DNA from: Denitrovibrio acetiphilus DSM 12809 | GTDB taxonomy: Bacteria; Chrysiogenota; Deferribacteres; Deferribacterales; Geovibrionaceae | Reading direction: 5' to 3' | Assembly (NCBI RefSeq): GCF_000025725.1 | Contig: NC_013943.1 | Span: 2,294,001 to 2,358,000, forward strand | DNA length: 64,000 bases | Part shown: positions 1 to 19,620 of the stretch, piece by piece | How positions within the stretch are numbered: the stretch's first letter is position 1 | How the letters are laid out: every line of letters begins with the position of its first letter | The notes under the pieces: model-generated | The model's input: only the letters and a program-made list of their open reading frames with translations | Told to the model about the DNA's origin: nothing | The model's database searches: none | Program-made: the position numbers and the translations under genes

Positions 1-2325
1 AGTGTTATAATATGTTGAGTGTGTTCTTTGTTTATGGTGGAAGCCAACAACCTGAAACGGATATGTGCTGATAGTAGGATCCTCATAGCCGTCCCAAGCA
101 GCATAGTATTCCGGCAGAGCTGTGATCTTATCCTTGCCGTCCTGATACTCAGCAGGGAAGCTCCACTGATGGCTGAGGTTGTAAAGTCTTTTTGAGAATA
201 TTTCAAATTTACCAGAAGGAGTAGATACTCTGTTAGATGAAGGATCTGAAACAAAGTCTTCAAAAGCTACAGACGGTACTGCTGTGGTGCTGTAATGTTT
301 GATGAGACCTTTTTCATGACATTTGGCAAATGTATCCTGTCCTTTTTCAGCTGTAAATACACCCTGATCACCATATGTCGCTATAGATTGATCAAACAGG
401 TACTCAAGCCATTCTTCCTGTGTTCTTCCTTCAGTAAATTCACCTTCGATACCAAGTTTAGCAGCGATGAGTGACATCATTTCGTAGATTGTTTTACACT
501 CAAACATTGGCTCAATTGCTTTGTTCTGAAATTTAATATCACAAGTGTTACCACCGCTGTTTGTTGATATATCATTCTGTTCAAAGTTAGTACAGTCAGG
601 CAGAATGTAATCAGAAATCATCGCAGAAGGGGTAAAATAGTTATCAATTGTCACTATGCACTCAACAAGACTTTCATCTTTGTACATCTCCATAGTGTTG
701 TTTATATCGCCGTGCTGGTTGAGCATACAGTTACCTGCATAGTTCCAGATGAATTTTATCGGTTGTGGAAGAGCGTCGTCAGGTGTAGGAAGGCCTCTTA
801 CGCCCCATGTCTTCCCTGTCATTACTGTATTGTCTTTTATAGCCTGTGGCCATGCGTAGTTTGATATAGTCTGAGGCACTGGATTTGCAGGAAAAGTGCT
901 TACCCATTTGTTCATGCGGATACTTACAGAGGCTGCGCCTTCTCTGGCTGCTGTACCGCCGCCTGTAATACCGATGTTTTTAGTAAGAATAGTTATAAGA
1001 CCGATAGCTCTGCAGTTATTACCGCCAAGTGAGTTTCTCTGTGGCCCCCACCCCTGAATAACCATTGCCGGAGACTGATTTAAAAGTTGTTTTGCAAAAT
1101 CCTGAATAGTTTTTTCAGGGATACCAGTAATGTTAGAAGCCCATGCGGTGTCTTTGACAACGCCGTCTGCGCCAAGCCCCAGTAAGTATGATTTATATGA
1201 ACTTTCAGGAGCAACAGGAGGTTCAGTAGTGTCTGTGTCACCCCATGCTTTATCATATGCAGGTGCATATCCTGATTCTTCGCCTTCAAATACTTCTTTA
1301 ACATTAGCAAAAGATGCTTCACTCCAGCCTACGCTGCGTTCATCAATCCAGTCTTCATCAAGAAGGTTCTCAGAAAGAAGATAGTGTGTCATACCTGCAA
1401 CAAGCGCAGCATCTGTCCCAGGGCGGATTGAAATCCAGTCTGCTTCAAGGGCAAGAGCTGTATCTGTGTAGAACGGGTCAACAACTATAAATTTAAGATT
1501 AGGGTTAGCTTCTTTCGCTTTCTGGAGGTGATATGTCCAGTGTCTTCCAGAACCCATACGAGTATTTGCAGGGTTATTACCCCACAGAACAACAAGATTA
1601 CTGTTCACTGCGTCTGTAATAGTATTGTTACTAAAGCTTGAGCCTTCAAGGAGGCAGAGACTTGCAGTAATCTGGGATGTAGAGTAATCTGAATAGTGGT
1701 TCAGCCACCCGCCCCAAAGGTTGTGCAGTCTTGCCATAGGTGTTGATGCCGGCGGCCATGAGCAGGCGATGGAAGCATCAATTGTCCCTGTAGCATATTG
1801 GATATAAAACGAATCGGGCCCGTAGTTAGATTTTACAGACTGCATTTTAGCAGAAATCTCATTAATAGCTTCTTCCCATGTAATGCGCTCATACTGACCG
1901 GCACCTCTTGGGCTTCCGGCAACTCTTCTCATAGGGTATTTCAGTCTGTCGGTATTGTAGATTCTCTGGCGCACAGAACGTCCTCTGACGCAGGAGCGCA
2001 TCTGATAGTTAGCGCCATAGCTGCCATAAACATCTTCGGTTTCGTTATCAGTGCTGACACGGACAACCACACCATCCTTAACATAAAGTTTCAGAGGGCA
2101 GTTACTACCGCAGTTAACGTTACATGCAGACCATACTGCTTTATCATAATCAAATTCTTTTGGTTCAATAACAGAGTCTGAGCCTCCGCTACCACTGCTG
2201 TCGGAGCCGTCAAGAGAGCCGCAACCGACTGTGGCAGCAGCACCCAGAAGGGCACTCCATTTCATAAATGTTCTTCTGGATACGTCCAGTGCTTTGCTTA
2301 AACGTTCGTTTCCTGATACTGACAT
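1..2325 (-). CDS. dmsA: DmsA-type DMSO reductase catalytic subunit, 3' end outside window
   Basis: Molybdopterin oxidoreductase of the DmsA branch of the DMSO reductase family, expected to reduce S- or N-oxides at a bis-MGD molybdenum site after Tat export. The frame stays open to the window edge (775 codons), so the C-terminal end is missing. Seen: twin-arginine motif SRRTFMKW at residues 16-23 plus a hydrophobic stretch; an N-terminal Fe-S site C68-x3-C72-x3-C76-x35-C112 in the DmsA pattern (CNVNCGSNCPLK); and DYSTSQI, where Ser215 is the likely Mo ligand. The ATG has AAGGAGG five bases upstream. Iron-sulfur and membrane subunits (DmsB, DmsC), if present, would lie beyond position 1. Substrate (DMSO, TMAO, other) cannot be told from the sequence. 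Confidence 0.85.
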   Translation of the reverse strand, partial: MSVSGNERLSKALDVSRRTFMKWSALLGAAATVGCGSLDGSDSSGSGGSDSVIEPKEFDYDKAVWSACNVNCGSNCPLKLYVKDGVVVRVSTDNETEDVYGSYGANYQMRSCVRGRSVRQRIYNTDRLKYPMRRVAGSPRGAGQYERITWEEAINEISAKMQSVKSNYGPDSFYIQYATGTIDASIACSWPPASTPMARLHNLWGGWLNHYSDYSTSQITASLCLLEGSSFSNNTITDAVNSNLVVLWGNNPANTRMGSGRHWTYHLQKAKEANPNLKFIVVDPFYTDTALALEADWISIRPGTDAALVAGMTHYLLSENLLDEDWIDERSVGWSEASFANVKEVFEGEESGYAPAYDKAWGDTDTTEPPVAPESSYKSYLLGLGADGVVKDTAWASNITGIPEKTIQDFAKQLLNQSPAMVIQGWGPQRNSLGGNNCRAIGLITILTKNIGITGGGTAAREGAASVSIRMNKWVSTFPANPVPQTISNYAWPQAIKDNTVMTGKTWGVRGLPTPDDALPQPIKFIWNYAGNCMLNQHGDINNTMEMYKDESLVECIVTIDNYFTPSAMISDYILPDCTNFEQNDISTNSGGNTCDIKFQNKAIEPMFECKTIYEMMSLIAAKLGIEGEFTEGRTQEEWLEYLFDQSIATYGDQGVFTAEKGQDTFAKCHEKGLIKHYSTTAVPSVAFEDFVSDPSSNRVSTPSGKFEIFSKRLYNLSHQWSFPAEYQDGKDKITALPEYYAAWDGYEDPTISTYPFQVVGFHHKQRTHSTYYNT

Positions 2326-2440
2326 CCTAGCCTCCTTGGTTTCCTAACAATTCTCTGTGACCGTATGAGAAAATAACGCTTATGCAGCATATATTTCCTA
2401 CATACGGTGCTGACAACTTCGTCTGAAATACAGATCCTTG

Positions 2441-2560
2441 TCACCGGCTGTTCAACCTTGTCAGTTTGTTCTTCGCAAATGCTGAATCAAGGCAACAGTC
2501 AGGGTTGTCTTTGCCGGAGAATTTTTGAATATGTCTTTCAAATATAAAAACATTTCCCAT
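2441..2560 (-). CDS. Possible 39-residue leader ORF upstream of dmsA
   Basis: A 39-codon frame starts at ATG 2560 and stops at 2441, with AAAGGA six bases before the ATG. The predicted peptide begins MGNVFIFERHIQKFSGKDNP and carries an adjacent Cys pair at residues 22-23. No family is recognised. It lies between the presumed regulator repeats and dmsA, so it could be a leader peptide gene, a small protein or chance. The good ribosome site is the only positive sign. Confidence 0.3.
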   Translation of the reverse strand: MGNVFIFERHIQKFSGKDNPDCCLDSAFAKNKLTRLNSR

Positions 2561-2691
2561 AGGTATTCCTTTGTTCACCGGACACCCCCCACTCCTCTGA
2601 AACATGCATTGCTGCGTTCAGTCTGTGGATGTCAGGCGGTAGTATTAATGAATACTCATATAGTATGCTTGCCTCAGGATACAAAACAAAA

Positions 2692-2710
2692 GGTCAAATG
2701 ATGGTCAAAT
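2692..2710 (-). promoter_or_regulatory. Tandem GGTCAAAT repeat, putative response regulator site (dmsA)
   Basis: Two copies of GGTCAAAT (ATTTGACC on the transcribed strand) at 2692-2699 and 2703-2710, start to start exactly 11 bp, i.e. one helical turn. This is the usual layout of OmpR-family sites. The same pair with the same spacing occurs at 3566-3584 before the response regulator gene. Confidence 0.55.
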
Positions 2711-2804
2711 TATAGATTTTTATTAAGATTATTTAAGAAATAACGTTATGTATGAAAATAATAGTGAAGTCCCTCCAGAAATGTTTAATTACGTATATTA
2801 CGTG

Positions 2805-3497
2805 TTATTCTGGGTAACTTTCCTTGTGATCCGGATCAATTTTGTAACCTCTTCCACGGACACTATGCAAAAGCTGTTTTTCATAAGGCTTGTCTATTAA
2901 CTGTCTCAAAATATAAAAATGTGATTTGAGAGAGTTACTCATAGGCGGCTGATCACCCCATATATCGTAAATAAGCTCTTCTTTAGTCACTATCCCCGGC
3001 GAACGCTCAATCAGCCTAAGCAATATACGGAAACAGACATGGGAAAGATTAATTTTCTCTCCGGCTCTTTCCACTATCCCTTTTTCCTGATCCAGTATCA
3101 GATCTTCTATCTGGAAAGAGTTTTCAAGACACTGATTATATCTTCTAGACAAAGCCTTCAGTCTGAAAAAAAGCTCTTCAAGATCAAACGGTTTAGTAAG
3201 GAAATCGTCAGCTCCACATTTAAAACCGTTAATCTTATCTTTAAGCATCACTCTGGCTGTAAGCATAAGTACAGGGATTTTAAGACGCATATTTTCTCTT
3301 ATATGCCTGCACACTTCAAACCCGTTCATCTTATGCATATTAATATCAAGAATGACTGCATCATAAAGATTATCACGAAGCAGCTCCAGAGCAAGTTCGC
3401 CGGACATGGCATAGTCCATTCCACACCCCTGCTCTTCAAGATAGTCCACAATATTTTCTGAAATATCCAGATCATCTTCGACTAATAAAAATCTCAT
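2805..3497 (-). CDS. OmpR/PhoB-family response regulator
   Basis: Two-component response regulator, 230 residues. The receiver domain (1-115) has the acidic pair E7-D8-D9, phospho-acceptor D51 (VILDINM) and K102 (LTKPFD). The C-terminal winged helix (about 130-228) ends with the typical RGRGYKI wing. I place the start at ATG 3497, where the receiver begins canonically. A TTG at 3527 with AGGTG upstream would add ten residues but would leave only a very short leader behind the predicted promoter. The likely partner is the histidine kinase at 6402-7766, on the other side of torA, since these are the only two-component genes here. Tandem repeats in its own promoter and upstream of dmsA suggest autoregulation and control of dmsA (inference). 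Confidence 0.85.
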   Translation of the reverse strand: MRFLLVEDDLDISENIVDYLEEQGCGMDYAMSGELALELLRDNLYDAVILDINMHKMNGFEVCRHIRENMRLKIPVLMLTARVMLKDKINGFKCGADDFLTKPFDLEELFFRLKALSRRYNQCLENSFQIEDLILDQEKGIVERAGEKINLSHVCFRILLRLIERSPGIVTKEELIYDIWGDQPPMSNSLKSHFYILRQLIDKPYEKQLLHSVRGRGYKIDPDHKESYPE

Positions 3498-3543
3498 TAC
3501 TTCTTGTTTTTTTACAGACTTACCCAAATTTGCACCTATATCA

Positions 3544-3584
3544 AATATAATTGTAAAGGGAAAATGGTCAAATAACGGTCAAAT
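3544..3584 (-). promoter_or_regulatory. Response regulator promoter with tandem GGTCAAAT operator
   Basis: Two GGTCAAAT copies at 3566-3573 and 3577-3584, 11 bp apart. Reading on the minus strand, the proximal copy supplies a -35-like TTGACC (3566-3571), followed after 16 bases by TATATT (3544-3549) as a -10. Transcription would begin about 40 bases before the ATG at 3497. The overlap of repeat and -35 fits autoregulation. Confidence 0.5.
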
Positions 3585-4028: not shown

Positions 4029-6401
4029 TTAATGTATTTGACAGTAATTTATCTGCGAAAAGCTTTCAGATTTTATTTTACCACAACATCTTATCGCAAC
4101 AAGGCAGCTGTTAGCAGAGATCGCCTGCGCAAGCCGGGACGTAGGTCTGTCTGAGGTCAGAACATTGACTTGCCCGGAAATACATCTGGAATTGCTGTCT
4201 GCCGGGTCTTCCGCTGCAAACCATGCTCCTTCTTCAATAGCAACCACTCCCTTGATTATACCGTCTGAAACATGAGTGCCGGCAATCACTTTGCCTCTGT
4301 TATTATAAACTTCAACAAGATCCCCCTCTTTTAGTCCCATCCGACTGGCATCCTCAGTATTTATGTGAATAGGTTCCCTTCCGCTGATCTTATACTTTTT
4401 AGAAAGATCAGAGTTATCAAGCTGAGAATGAAGCCTGTGTTCGGGGTGCGGAGATATAAGCTGAAAAGGATATTTCCTCGACAGGTAAGAGCCGATACCT
4501 TCGGAAGGCTCGATCCACGCGGGGTGCCCCGGGCAGTCACGATAACCGAAAGAGGCGATCTTCTCTGAAAACAGCTCTATTTTCCCCGACGGAGTACGCA
4601 GATGTTTCTTCACCGGGTCATTTCTGAAATCAGCATGTCTTACAAAGTCTCTGCTCCCCTTTAATGGTGGGAAATGAACGTAGCCTTTATCCCAAAAATC
4701 AGCAAAACTGACTTCAGCACGAACTTTACTGTAGCTCCACTCAATCCATTCGTCGATGCTTCTGCCTTTGGTAAATTCTTTTTCAAAGCCAAACTTAGCT
4801 GACAGGTCTCTGAATATATCGTAGTCATTTCTCGCCTCAAACAAAGGGCTGATGATCTGTTTCATAGCAAAAACATACTCGACTCCATACGAGGAACCGA
4901 ATGTAAGATCATTTCTTTCGAAACTTGTTGTCGCCGGCAGAACTATATCTGAATATTTTGCAGTTGGAGTCCACCAAGGTTCGTGGGTTATAACAGTGTC
5001 CGCTTTCCGGACACCTTTTATCAGCTTATTAACATCCGGCTGATGCCCGATAGGAGTCACTCCGGCAGAGTATATTAGTTTGATATTCGGGTAAGTGAGT
5101 CTTTTCCCGTTATATTCAATGGTCTTCCCGGGATTAAGCAGCAATTCCGCCATTCTGGATGCGGGGATAAGTGTTTGAACAGGGTTCCCCCCTTGTGAAA
5201 CCATAATAGGTATACCAGCTCCGCTATATGGGGCTCCCGCAGTACAGTATGCCATATTCAGGTACAAACCGCCGCCGGGAAGCCCTATCTGACCGATCAT
5301 ACTGCCAAGGGCAACAAGGCTCCAGTGAAACTGCTCTCCGTTCTGAATCCTCTGACATGCCCAGCTTCCTGTGACCAGAGTCCTATGTTTTACTGACATT
5401 CTGGCAAGTTCTTTTATCTTATCCGCAGGAACTCCGCAGATCTTTTCTGCCCATGCAGCATCTTTTACCACTCCGTCCTTTTCACCTGTCAGGTATTTCA
5501 GAAAGGTGTAGAAACCAACTGTATATTTTTCTATAAATTCTTTATTATAAAGACCTTCAATGTAAAGCGTATAACACATGGCAAGTATCATAGGGACATC
5601 GCTTGCCGCTCTGATAGGCACCCATTCACTCCCAAGCTCACGGCAGGTTTTGCTTTTAAGCGGGTCGATAGTTACAAACTTAACCCCTTTGTCCCGCATC
5701 GCTCTGAACCATTCAAAATCGCTGTGTATAGGCACATGATAATCAACCTTTTCTGTTTTAAAAGGGTCTGTCCCCCACATAAGGATCAGCTCTGTGTTCT
5801 CCAGCACAACATCCCTTGCTGTCTGTCTGCTGTATACCTCCATATCCCCCACAACATAAGGAAGGATACGCGTTGCTGCACCGGCAGAATAATCACCAAC
5901 AATATCTGTAAAGCCTCCGAAAAGCCCCAGCATCCTCGCCTGAAGAGACGAAGCCTGATGAATCCGCCCGGGGTGTGACCACCTTGCGTATGTAGTTTTA
6001 AAAATCGACTCGTTGCCATATTCCTCTCTTGTTTTTATAAGAGATTCAGCAACCAGATCAAGAGCTTCATCCCAGCTAACTCTGACAAACTCTTCAGCTC
6101 CACGCAGATGTCTTTTGTCAGAACCGTCGAGATAGCTCTTCCGTACGCAGGGGTGTTTAATCCTGTTTGGTGAATATGTAACATCCTTCAGGGCATATAA
6201 AAGATCAACGGGATCCATATCCATTCCCATCGCTTCTATCTTAACTATCTTACCGTTCCTGACATACGCTTTCAGCGGCCCCATGTGCGTGGCATGGGTT
6301 ATTACCCTGTCGCCCTCACTTGCCAGCACTTCCGGACTATAGGCAATTGCAGCAAAAGTTGCTGCAGCCATACGTATAAATTGTCTGCGGTTCAACAGCA
6401 T
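4029..6401 (-). CDS. torA: TorA/DorA-type periplasmic TMAO/DMSO reductase
   Basis: Single-subunit type molybdoenzyme of the TorA/DorA/BisC group, 790 residues, reducing TMAO, DMSO or related oxides. Seen: Tat signal NRRQFIRM at residues 4-11 with a probable cleavage near VLA-SEG; no N-terminal Fe-S cysteines, unlike the DmsA-type gene to its left (the matching region reads HATHMGPLKAYV); DYSAGAATRILP with Ser172 as likely Mo ligand; and a C-terminal cofactor-binding domain from about 650. The start ATG follows the kinase stop codon directly (TAA-ATG), with GGAGG inside the end of the kinase gene, so translation is coupled. No TorC-type cytochrome or TorD chaperone gene is in the window. TorA versus BisC/TorZ cannot be settled by eye; the Tat signal favours a periplasmic enzyme. 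Confidence 0.85.
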   Translation of the reverse strand: MLLNRRQFIRMAAATFAAIAYSPEVLASEGDRVITHATHMGPLKAYVRNGKIVKIEAMGMDMDPVDLLYALKDVTYSPNRIKHPCVRKSYLDGSDKRHLRGAEEFVRVSWDEALDLVAESLIKTREEYGNESIFKTTYARWSHPGRIHQASSLQARMLGLFGGFTDIVGDYSAGAATRILPYVVGDMEVYSRQTARDVVLENTELILMWGTDPFKTEKVDYHVPIHSDFEWFRAMRDKGVKFVTIDPLKSKTCRELGSEWVPIRAASDVPMILAMCYTLYIEGLYNKEFIEKYTVGFYTFLKYLTGEKDGVVKDAAWAEKICGVPADKIKELARMSVKHRTLVTGSWACQRIQNGEQFHWSLVALGSMIGQIGLPGGGLYLNMAYCTAGAPYSGAGIPIMVSQGGNPVQTLIPASRMAELLLNPGKTIEYNGKRLTYPNIKLIYSAGVTPIGHQPDVNKLIKGVRKADTVITHEPWWTPTAKYSDIVLPATTSFERNDLTFGSSYGVEYVFAMKQIISPLFEARNDYDIFRDLSAKFGFEKEFTKGRSIDEWIEWSYSKVRAEVSFADFWDKGYVHFPPLKGSRDFVRHADFRNDPVKKHLRTPSGKIELFSEKIASFGYRDCPGHPAWIEPSEGIGSYLSRKYPFQLISPHPEHRLHSQLDNSDLSKKYKISGREPIHINTEDASRMGLKEGDLVEVYNNRGKVIAGTHVSDGIIKGVVAIEEGAWFAAEDPADSNSRCISGQVNVLTSDRPTSRLAQAISANSCLVAIRCCGKIKSESFSQINYCQIH

Positions 6402-7766
6402 TTATCCCTCCGTCACAGTATTATGTAATTGCCTGCAGAGGTCGGGACAGACAAAATCATGGTCTTTATTGTTAAAACAAACAATAACATTCGCCCCTTT
6501 CCCCTCTTCAGATATTATATTCAGTTTCCATCCTACCTGAGTGCACATTCTATGGGCTATAGACAAGCCAAACCCAAACCCGTCAGCTTTCGAAACTCCT
6601 TCAACGACATTAATAGCATCCAGCACGTGTTTAGGTATCCCCGGTCCTTCATCTCTAACTGAAATGCATGTTTCATATATAGAAACAACAACTTTGCCTC
6701 TCGGCGTGTATGTTACGGCATTACGAACAAGATTACCCACGACAACCGAGAGTATTTCCGGTGTAACAGAAAGGGTTGCGTTTGAATGCACATCTATAAT
6801 AACTTTCAAAGGCTTATTTCTGATCAGATAACTGTTGTTGTCCACGCACTCGCGCACTACAACAGCAGCGCTTACCGACCCCCACTCTTCCTGACGCTCT
6901 TGTCTGGACAGCCACAGGAAAGAGTTAATAAGATGCTCCATATTATTAGTGGCACGCTTTATGCGAGAGATCGCTCTCTCTCTTTTCTCTTCATTGTCAT
7001 TAATTCCGCAGGATAGGATTTTGATTGCACCCTGTAAAACTGTTACCGGAGTACGGAGTTCATGGCTTGCGTCTCTGGCAAAAGCCTTTTCACGGTTTAT
7101 AGAAGACTGCATCTCGCTGATAGCACTCTCAAGAGTCTTTGCTAGGTACCCTACTTCATCATTTTCAAACATTTGCGACATATTTTCCGGCAGAACACCC
7201 GTTGCCTCCTTAGCCTTGATCATTCTCGTCAGCCTTACAACAGGAGATACCGCTTTATAAGATGTAATGATACCCAGGAGCAAACCAAAGATGAATATAG
7301 GCAGCATCATAGCTATCAGCAAGCCCCGGGAAAGATTCAGAATTACGTGATCATTGATAAGTGTTGTAACGTTGAATAACAGATAAAATCTTCTTCCGTC
7401 CTGAAGGTCTCTGATCGACACATAATAGTGCTGCTTATCGTGCTCTTCCTCGTAGTCCCCTGCGGGTCTGTCGCTAAGAGTAGTTGCAGCCCATTCAGGC
7501 ATAATATCTTCCCCGATATATGTGGTCATATAAGGAGATTCTGGTACTGTTATATCTCTGCTGAATGCCACGGGAGCAACTGGCGAAGTATCCACAGACT
7601 CAAGATACCTACTGGTCTCAAGCTCAAGCCTCTTTTTGAGGGCATACTCTTCTGTATATTTAGTTGAAATAAAAATACCAACAAAGAGAGCCATACCCAG
7701 TAAAATGCTGAAGCCGGAAAAAACTAAAACTATTTTCAAGCGGAGAGAGCTACCAATGAAATCCAT
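6402..7766 (-). CDS. Sensor histidine kinase co-transcribed with torA
   Basis: Membrane histidine kinase, 454 residues. Seen: TM1 about 11-33, a periplasmic segment of roughly 115 residues without a recognised domain, TM2 about 149-169, HAMP about 170-222, the H-box RDASHELRTPV with phospho-acceptor His235, an N-box (GNLVRNAVTYTP), and the ATP lid DEGPGIP followed by GFGFGLSIAHRM. I choose ATG 7766 because GAGGA lies eight bases upstream; a TTG further up lacks such a site. It is directly followed by torA with no gap. It probably signals to the response regulator encoded at 2805-3497. The unusual point is that kinase and regulator genes are separated by the respiratory gene they may control. 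Confidence 0.85.
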   Translation of the reverse strand: MDFIGSSLRLKIVLVFSGFSILLGMALFVGIFISTKYTEEYALKKRLELETSRYLESVDTSPVAPVAFSRDITVPESPYMTTYIGEDIMPEWAATTLSDRPAGDYEEEHDKQHYYVSIRDLQDGRRFYLLFNVTTLINDHVILNLSRGLLIAMMLPIFIFGLLLGIITSYKAVSPVVRLTRMIKAKEATGVLPENMSQMFENDEVGYLAKTLESAISEMQSSINREKAFARDASHELRTPVTVLQGAIKILSCGINDNEEKRERAISRIKRATNNMEHLINSFLWLSRQERQEEWGSVSAAVVVRECVDNNSYLIRNKPLKVIIDVHSNATLSVTPEILSVVVGNLVRNAVTYTPRGKVVVSIYETCISVRDEGPGIPKHVLDAINVVEGVSKADGFGFGLSIAHRMCTQVGWKLNIISEEGKGANVIVCFNNKDHDFVCPDLCRQLHNTVTEG

Positions 7767-8110
7767 TAATAGGTTCCTCAATTGTGTATTAAATATGCTT
7801 ATGTAAATTATCAATCAACGGCAAATAATGCTGCTGATGAATCATTTTCGACCCACATGTTTTTTGTCTAATACCTGCAATGTAGCCGTAATCAGGCAGT
7901 CTGTCCACCTTACTCTTGCAACTTTTTTAGTAAAACAGCAAAAGTAAACCTAAACTTAACATCACAAATCTTTGAGAATATATAGGAAATTCACAATTAC
8001 AATATCCAATAATAATCTCCTTATTATTAAAATATAGAATCGATTTCGAGATGCCGCCATAAAAATCTGCTTGTCATTTATGTGATGTATTCAAACTGGC
8101 ATATAAAATT
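7767..8110. other. Intergenic region upstream of the kinase-torA operon
   Basis: About 340 AT-rich bases between the PEP/pyruvate-binding protein gene and the kinase. It must hold the kinase-torA promoter, but I cannot single one out. The GGTCAAAT pair found before dmsA and the response regulator gene is not present here. Confidence 0.4.
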
Positions 8111-17454: not shown

Positions 17455-19620
17455 ATGAATAACATTTTAACATTTGAATCAGTCTCCAAAACTTACGGAG
17501 AAAATAATGTACTGAAAAATCTCAGCTTTTCCGTCAGACAAGGTGAGGTAATCGGGATACTCGGCCCTAGCGGCGTCGGAAAATCAACTATGCTGAATAT
17601 CACTGCCGGACTTGAGAAAAATGACAGCGGAAATGTAGTAAACCATGGACAAAGAATTGCATATGTTTTCCAGAAACCAAGGCTGCTTCCATGGAAAAAT
17701 ATTACTGACAACGTAATGCTTCCTCTGCTGGCAATGGGGTTCTCATCAGAAAAAGCTAAGCAAACAGCGATGGCAGAATTAAATAAAATGGGATTAGGCA
17801 GCTCGACCGACCTCTTCCCTTCCCAGCTCTCAGGCGGCATGGCACAGCGGGTTTCCCTTGCCAGAGCGTTCGCACTGCAGCCTGACCTGCTTCTGCTTGA
17901 TGAACCATTCAACGCTCTGGATATAAAGATGAAAGAGATGCTTATGTTTATGATGCAGGAGAATCTCAGGCACAGCCCTGCAACAGTTCTTTATGTAACA
18001 CACGCTCCTGATGAAATTCTGCACATTGCAGACCGTATATTCATTTTCGGAGAAGGGGGGACGTTTGAAAGTATGGACTGTCAGGAAAAGTGTCTCAGCA
18101 AATACTATGCACAAGGTGCCATAAAGGGATTCCTTGGGCAAAAAACAAAACAGAAAGGAGAAAATATTATGTATGAATGGATGAACAATAAAGACAATTT
18201 CGAAACTATGGATATGCGGAGAAAGACACCGGAGTTTATGCCGGAACTGCTCAGGATGGCAGAAGATGTGCAGGAAGGAAAAGGGCTTCATATTATACAG
18301 AGTTTCGAGCCTATCCCGCTTTATTATCATATGGAAAAGCTGGGATTTATCAAGTATATGGAAAAACCTGAAGATAACGAATACCATGTATATTTTTACA
18401 GACCGCCTTCAGACTCAATGGCAAAATCAGCCAAGATGTCCGGCTTCCTGAATATAAATGAAAAAAGAGCCGAAACTATCGCTTCGATAGTCATGGATTT
18501 TTTTAACGGTAAAAAATTAGAGGAGCTCAAGCCTGCATATGATGCCATTACCCCCGTTACAGCAGCAGAATTCGCATACGCCGAACAGATGATTTCTGAC
18601 AAGGGAATACCTGACAGCAATTTTGAAAATAATATAGATGAACTCATTACTCTTTTTCGTTCATCACTCGACAAAAGCACCGCCGGCGAATTTCCGGAAG
18701 GACATCCGATAAATACATTTATGGCTGAAAATAGAGCAATAGAAAAGCTGATCATCAGCATAAGAGATGAGGTCAGCACAACTAAGGATTACAATAAACT
18801 CACAGAAATGTTTAAAAATCTGAAGGAAATTAATCATCATTATGTCAGAAAAGAGACTCAGCTATTCCCATATCTTGAAAGGAAAGGCTTCGACAAACCA
18901 TCCACAGTCATGTGGTCATTGCATGACAAAATCAGGCAGGGGATTAAAACATGCATAAAGATGCTGGAAGATAACCAATTCGACAGCTTTAATGAAATAT
19001 GCGGTTCAGTTCTGGATGAAACAGAAGGCATGATATATAAAGAGGAAAAAGTGCTCTTCCCCACAGCCAAGCTGATGCTTACAGAAAACGAATGGAAGCT
19101 TATAAGAAAAGGAGAGAGAGAACTCAGCTACTGCTTTATCGACACTCCTCCGACATGGGGCAGCCATACTGCCACAGAACATATTCATCCTGCAACACCA
19201 TCAGGCAATGGGCTTTTCCTGAAAATGAATGAAGGCATGCTATCCTACGAACAGCTTGATGCAATAATGTGCCATATGCCGGTAGACGTATCTTTTGTGG
19301 ACGCAGATGATAAGGTCAGGTATTACAACCAATCAAGCGAAAGGATATTCCCAAGAAGCCCTGATGTTATCGGCAGAGAAGTCAGATACTGTCACCCTCC
19401 TAAAAGTGTAGACACTGTTGTGTCCATCCTTGAAGCCTTTAAAAAAGGTGAACAGGATGTAGCAGAATTCTGGCTGACTCTGGATGAAAAGTTTATCTAT
19501 ATCCGCTATTTTGCTGTAAGGGACACATCGGGAACATATATGGGAACTCTGGAAGTCATGCAGAATGTCACACACATTAGAGAACTGGAGGGGAGCAGAA
19601 CTCTCATCTCTTGGGATTAG
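17455..19620 (+). CDS. ABC ATPase fused to DUF2249, hemerythrin and PAS domains
   Basis: 721 residues in one uninterrupted frame. Residues 1-215 are a complete SsuB/TauB-type ATPase: Walker A GPSGVGKST 37-45, Q-loop VFQKPRLLPW, signature LSGGMAQ 125-131, Walker B LLLLDE 145-150, switch H183. Residues 277-316 look like DUF2249 (PIPLYYHMEKLGF). Residues 380-560 are DUF438-type helices with a hemerythrin-like bundle; putative iron ligands are H417, H461, E467, H490 and E530/E531. Residues 590-712 are a PAS-like domain with YCHPPKSV. The C-terminal half is paralogous to the protein at 12434-13648. It is the only ATPase near the divergent permease and binding protein genes and is probably their motor, with transport gated by a diiron/PAS sensor (inference). 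A strong internal ribosome site before M239 may give a second, ATPase-free product. Confidence 0.88.
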   Translation: MNNILTFESVSKTYGENNVLKNLSFSVRQGEVIGILGPSGVGKSTMLNITAGLEKNDSGNVVNHGQRIAYVFQKPRLLPWKNITDNVMLPLLAMGFSSEKAKQTAMAELNKMGLGSSTDLFPSQLSGGMAQRVSLARAFALQPDLLLLDEPFNALDIKMKEMLMFMMQENLRHSPATVLYVTHAPDEILHIADRIFIFGEGGTFESMDCQEKCLSKYYAQGAIKGFLGQKTKQKGENIMYEWMNNKDNFETMDMRRKTPEFMPELLRMAEDVQEGKGLHIIQSFEPIPLYYHMEKLGFIKYMEKPEDNEYHVYFYRPPSDSMAKSAKMSGFLNINEKRAETIASIVMDFFNGKKLEELKPAYDAITPVTAAEFAYAEQMISDKGIPDSNFENNIDELITLFRSSLDKSTAGEFPEGHPINTFMAENRAIEKLIISIRDEVSTTKDYNKLTEMFKNLKEINHHYVRKETQLFPYLERKGFDKPSTVMWSLHDKIRQGIKTCIKMLEDNQFDSFNEICGSVLDETEGMIYKEEKVLFPTAKLMLTENEWKLIRKGERELSYCFIDTPPTWGSHTATEHIHPATPSGNGLFLKMNEGMLSYEQLDAIMCHMPVDVSFVDADDKVRYYNQSSERIFPRSPDVIGREVRYCHPPKSVDTVVSILEAFKKGEQDVAEFWLTLDEKFIYIRYFAVRDTSGTYMGTLEVMQNVTHIRELEGSRTLISWD
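18154..18171 (+). promoter_or_regulatory. Internal ribosome binding site within the ATPase fusion
   Basis: AAAGGAG at 18154-18160 stands eight bases before an in-frame ATG at 18169 (Met239), exactly at the linker between the ATPase and DUF2249. Initiation there would make a 483-residue DUF2249-hemerythrin-PAS protein. Confidence 0.5.

Follow-up and report, generated by a model that had tools for sequence, protein, structure and literature searches.

Two exact copies of a tandem motif, one before a response regulator gene and one before dmsA in the 64,000-nucleotide stretch of Denitrovibrio acetiphilus DSM 12809 DNA analysed here (the window), are very probably (about 0.84) operators of the adjacent PhoB/OmpR-family regulator, which would activate the dmsA-dmsB-chaperone operon as well as the gene that encodes it. 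Computation shows where the sites lie, how they are spaced, where the −10 falls, how rare the motif is and how well it is conserved; from this we infer binding, phosphorylation and activation. The features concerned are these:

1–2325, minus strand: dmsA-type gene (ATG at 2325), of whose 898 aa the window covers the first 775; continues beyond the window edge
2676–2681, minus strand: TATCCT, predicted −10 for dmsA, at 10 bp from the second box (sequence and position profile)
2692–2710, minus strand: predicted tandem operator before dmsA, ATTTGACC-ATC-ATTTGACC, exact match, aligning with boxes that precede relatives' dms operons
2708–2703 and 2697–2692, minus strand: TTGACC boxes of the dmsA site (coding strand)
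2805–3497, minus strand: response regulator of PhoB/OmpR type, 230 aa (ATG at 3497; Pfam Response_reg and Trans_reg_C), proposed reader of both operators
3550–3555, minus strand: TACAAT, predicted −10 for the regulator gene, at 10 bp from the second box (sequence and position profile)
3566–3584, minus strand: predicted tandem operator upstream of the regulator gene, ATTTGACC-GTT-ATTTGACC, exact match, kept in six orthologous promoters
3582–3577 and 3571–3566, minus strand: TTGACC boxes of the regulator site (coding strand)
4029–6401, minus strand: TorA/BisC-like single-subunit molybdoenzyme, 790 aa, immediately downstream of the kinase gene (TIGR00509 bisC_fam)
6402–7766, minus strand: sensor histidine kinase, 454 aa (Pfam HisKA and HATPase_c), next to the regulator gene at each of the six orthologous loci

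The tandem sites and the genes around them

A pattern search found GGTCAAAT-N3-GGTCAAAT exactly on the plus strand at 2692–2710 and 3566–3584, with a repeat period of 11 bp at both sites; because the regulator and dmsA both lie on the minus strand, the coding-strand reading is ATTTGACC-N3-ATTTGACC. The original prediction had placed the motif twice, before dmsA and in the regulator's own promoter, with 11-bp periodicity at each, and both the copies and their spacing proved exact. No further copy occurred in the window, even at three mismatches, and a genome-wide scan (one contig, 3,222,077 bases), proposed as a check on that prediction, returned only these two exact copies, where 0.0023 per genome is expected from composition; 300 dinucleotide shuffles of the window yielded none. 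The next-best genome matches to the literal motif carry two mismatches, and its tail to three mismatches showed no excess over the reversed pattern (12+7 versus 14+7, genome-wide), so that the weaker matches, being equally frequent with the reversed control, were rejected. Common occurrence in unrelated intergenic DNA, which would have refuted the prediction, was seen neither in this genome nor in the relatives scanned.

All genes concerned (kinase, TorA/BisC-like molybdoenzyme, regulator and dmsA-type gene) lie on the minus strand. Both regulator domains score above cut-off (PF00072, receiver, 94.2 bits; PF00486, OmpR-type winged helix, 51.5 bits), which places the protein in the OmpR/PhoB family, and its solved relatives include 1kgs and 4s04. 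The full 898-aa DmsA-type protein passes TIGR02166 dmsA_ynfE (896.6 versus 777.7 bits), and on this sequence match the name dmsA is justified at the family level, not as to substrate; beyond the window edge it is followed by a DmsB-like subunit gene and then a DmsD/TorD-like chaperone gene (operon in L050). The kinase gene and the second molybdoenzyme gene that adjoin the regulator had no part in the original prediction. The latter stays under the TIGR00509 cut-off (947.8 versus 1017.6 bits), making it a close relative and no formal TorA/BisC member. The kinase is presumed to be the partner of the regulator; its AlphaFold2 model, with a small mixed helix/strand region between two long helices, is too weak for naming a ligand (mean pLDDT 72.5, pTM 0.46).

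Promoter layout and its conservation

At both sites a −10-like TANNNT hexamer, likewise missing from the original prediction, lies exactly 10 bp past the second TTGACC, the one before dmsA being weak (four of six letters). If these hexamers are −10 elements, the 5' leaders would be ~47 nt for the regulator and ~344 nt for dmsA. In PhoB-activated promoters the operator ends about 10 bp before the −10 and stands in for the −35 element, which is then not needed. Like both window promoters, 22 of 28 tandem boxes, gathered from the regulator/molybdoenzyme loci of seven genomes without demanding any −10, had TANNNT exactly 10 bp downstream, compared with at most 6/28 at every other offset; moreover, same-strand TTNACY pairs numbered 28 at 11-bp spacing and at most four at any other. 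The box/−10 layout is the arrangement of PhoB-type activated promoters, and its 10-bp distance favours activation. The kinase encoded at 7766–6402 would phosphorylate the regulator, which would then bind head-to-tail, one subunit per TTGACC box in keeping with the 11-bp period; occupying the −35 place 10 bp before the −10, the bound regulator would recruit RNA polymerase, switching on the dmsA-dmsB-chaperone operon and, by positive feedback, its own gene.

The degenerate pattern TTNACY-N5-TTNACY-N10-TANNNT, scanned at no mismatch, matched this genome 10 times (expected 0.97; reversed control 0) and, among 51 genomes of the phylum (totals summed by hand), gave 39 matches versus 4 in the control in the nine with the regulator family and 39 versus 43, background only, in the 42 without it, counts that are no independent test because the pattern was refined on the same loci; that part falls to the literal motif and to the genomes without the regulator family. 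Enrichment of the degenerate pattern is confined to genomes that have the regulator family. Nine of the 10 matches in D. acetiphilus sit in three regulator/molybdoenzyme clusters, and the tenth (C1:3164937), being inside a 485-aa reading frame, is probably due to chance. Three genomes of genus g2 conserve TTTACCTCAGATTTACC-N10-TATCAT (L129 1501–1533, L134 811–843 and G004:C11:92745–92777); in the two loci read it precedes a 341-aa protein, and the next frame resembles a MoeA-type molybdenum-cofactor gene.

Six genomes of the same family encode orthologous regulators (69–78% identical), and in every one tandem boxes stand just before the regulator's start codon, with an 11-bp period and a −10 following at 10 bp, in the forms TTCACC-N5-TTGACC, TTTACC-N5-TTGACA or TTCACT-N5-TTCACT. 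A search of named-genome relatives for the regulator gave only a 33% identical, uninformative Cytobacillus protein. Boxes also precede the kinase/torA-like operon in 6/6 ortholog genomes, three with GATTAT or GATAAT replacing TANNNT. Three to four of the six have one at a dms operon too: the three genus g4 genomes (L094–L096) have one before the downstream dms operon, and that of L097 is weaker (9/10 letters plus a −10). The third box of L098 and of L099 is at the contig end, which hides the gene it would control.

The window's own kinase/torA-like operon, unlike all six orthologous operons, showed no clear box in the segment searched (7767–8110), a point that the original prediction did not touch. 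The best candidate, at 7959, scored 11/13, a value reached by seven places in the window, was out of register with the orthologous boxes and was rejected as a third box. Without a convincing box, this operon may be outside the regulatory loop in D. acetiphilus.

The segments between the box and dmsA differ among relatives. In L094 (10850–12755), L095 (10881–12786) and L096 (10838–12743) they encode a barrel-like protein and a cytochrome with five haems; the window (2326–2675) and L097 (10825–11087) are without them and have a 260–344 nt leader instead. The predicted dmsA leader (window 2323–2669, minus strand) has a more stable fold than its shuffles (z −3.3; 0/100 as low), and a known RNA element in it was rejected, there being no Rfam match. 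L097 also has a selenocysteine tRNA gene (19347–19438) about 4 kb from its dms region.

Sister modules and alternative readings

Paralogous regulators, 48–58% identical, neighbour other molybdoenzymes, and boxes reading TTAACC or TTTACY with unchanged spacing precede both their own genes and the neighbouring molybdoenzyme operons. In the paralogous cluster at C1:191–217 kb there is one before each of four tandem operons. These operons (G000:C1:193341–216252; L100 8341–19667, L101 34–11252) are very similar to one another, each with its own tandem box and encoding a 480-aa protein and a small cytochrome c with five haems, together with a DmsA-like enzyme and a DmsB-like subunit; the 480-aa protein has no Pfam match and the look of an outer-membrane barrel.

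Box letters and regulator sequences change together. Where a module's regulator carries the helix SNSLKSHF, the third box letter is G or C in 37/40 half-sites; with the other helices (TDxLKVH, TNALKAH, TDALKAH, SDSLKVH) it is A or T in 46/48 (half-sites counted by hand). The Fisher p value of 7e-19 is inflated by relatedness; within this genome alone the counts are 4/0 versus 2/18 (p 0.0014). Homology to PhoB/OmpR suggests that this aligned helix is the one that reads the DNA. Within the 191-kb cluster, the promoter at C1:204933 carries TTGACT-N5-TTCACC, lettering of the kind linked to the window's regulator, which may cross-control it. That the genome holds four paralogous kinase/regulator modules beside molybdoenzymes, insulated by matched changes in the third letter (G/C versus A/T) and the recognition helix, and that one or more promoters of another module (C1:204933) are cross-wired and perhaps read by the window's regulator, is a tentative proposal to which we give somewhat less than an even chance.

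The same data bear on who reads the two sites and to what effect. A regulator that binds but represses, shutting RNA polymerase out of the dmsA promoter and its own, would be in keeping with a site that overlaps the −35 region and with a family whose members act either way according to site position, PhoB itself being a dual regulator (PMC10294691). We nevertheless consider repression unlikely, since the feature that varies least is the 10-bp distance to the −10, which a repressor site would not need to keep, and an independent −35 at 16–18 bp is not the rule in the promoter set, the dmsA promoter having none. Slightly less likely still is that another regulator, such as one of the three paralogs (C1:191081, 2777824, 1726701), reads the sites, alone or with the local one. 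The genome is rich in OmpR-type regulators (51 receiver-domain matches), so that the reader is assigned by linkage and covariation only, and paralogs 48–58% identical would, by the same reasoning, bind very similar boxes; but the third letter separates the two types (A/T in 46/48 paralog half-sites, G/C in 37/40 of the local type), and the orthologous regulators stay linked to the local box type in six genomes.

Very improbable, finally, is that TTGACC is a plain sigma-70 −35 element doubled by accident. It is one letter off TTGACA, and TTGACC-N16-TATATT before the regulator would serve as a promoter, but nothing −10-like stands at 16–18 bp for dmsA (at most 2/6 letters), and neither the exact 11-bp doubling with its 10-bp offset nor the conserved letter change to TTCACT, TTAACC or TTTACT in other modules fits such an element. 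Activation by the adjacent regulator, with the OmpR-family link, autoregulation and control of DmsA originally predicted, is instead what the sequences support, binding and the direction of regulation being deduced: the regulator is a full-length OmpR/PhoB-type protein, the rare motif is confined to these promoters, its position is conserved before orthologous regulators and relatives' dms operons, and altered forms occur at paralogous regulator/molybdoenzyme clusters. The same wiring in relatives and sister gene clusters makes this a well-supported new case of ordinary bacterial control, in which a PhoB-like autoregulated activator would govern a dms operon as one of several sister modules.

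Comparison with known systems

A literature search on Deferribacterota found no regulon described for molybdoenzyme respiration; the sites give a precise, testable one. Since a common site architecture is kept in nine genomes while the box letters change with the regulator, they also form a natural set for target separation of duplicated two-component systems.

PmrA/BasR is among the closest solved relatives of the regulator by sequence (4s04, 8jo2), and its box likewise consists of direct repeats with an 11-bp period; the box letters and regulon differ, and the regulator scores 137 against a PmrA cut-off of 330. TorR, which serves TMAO respiration in E. coli and Salmonella, is similar in being an OmpR-family regulator set over an enzyme of the TorA/DMSO-reductase family and in using direct repeats. 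The E. coli Tor sensor, however, is a hybrid kinase acting with TorT, whereas the kinase here is a simple one, and torR autoregulation is negative, opposite in sign to that proposed here. Autoregulation of torR is reported, as a title cited in PMC10662104 states, and tor boxes are decamers, CTGTTCATAT, of which four or more precede torCAD (PMC9239176); the sites here read ATTTGACC and do not match that box.

With PhoB the regulator shares a receiver and winged-helix build, and its proposed sites share 11-bp direct repeats, the pho box being two 11-nt direct repeats (PMC4415409), and strict spacing to the core promoter, as reported for PhoB sites (PMC10294691). Yet the box here is TTGACC and the pho box CTGTCAT, the targets here are molybdoenzymes and those of PhoB phosphate genes, and the regulator scores 141.4 against a TIGR02154 cut-off of 296.2 bits: it would work like PhoB while not being filed as PhoB.
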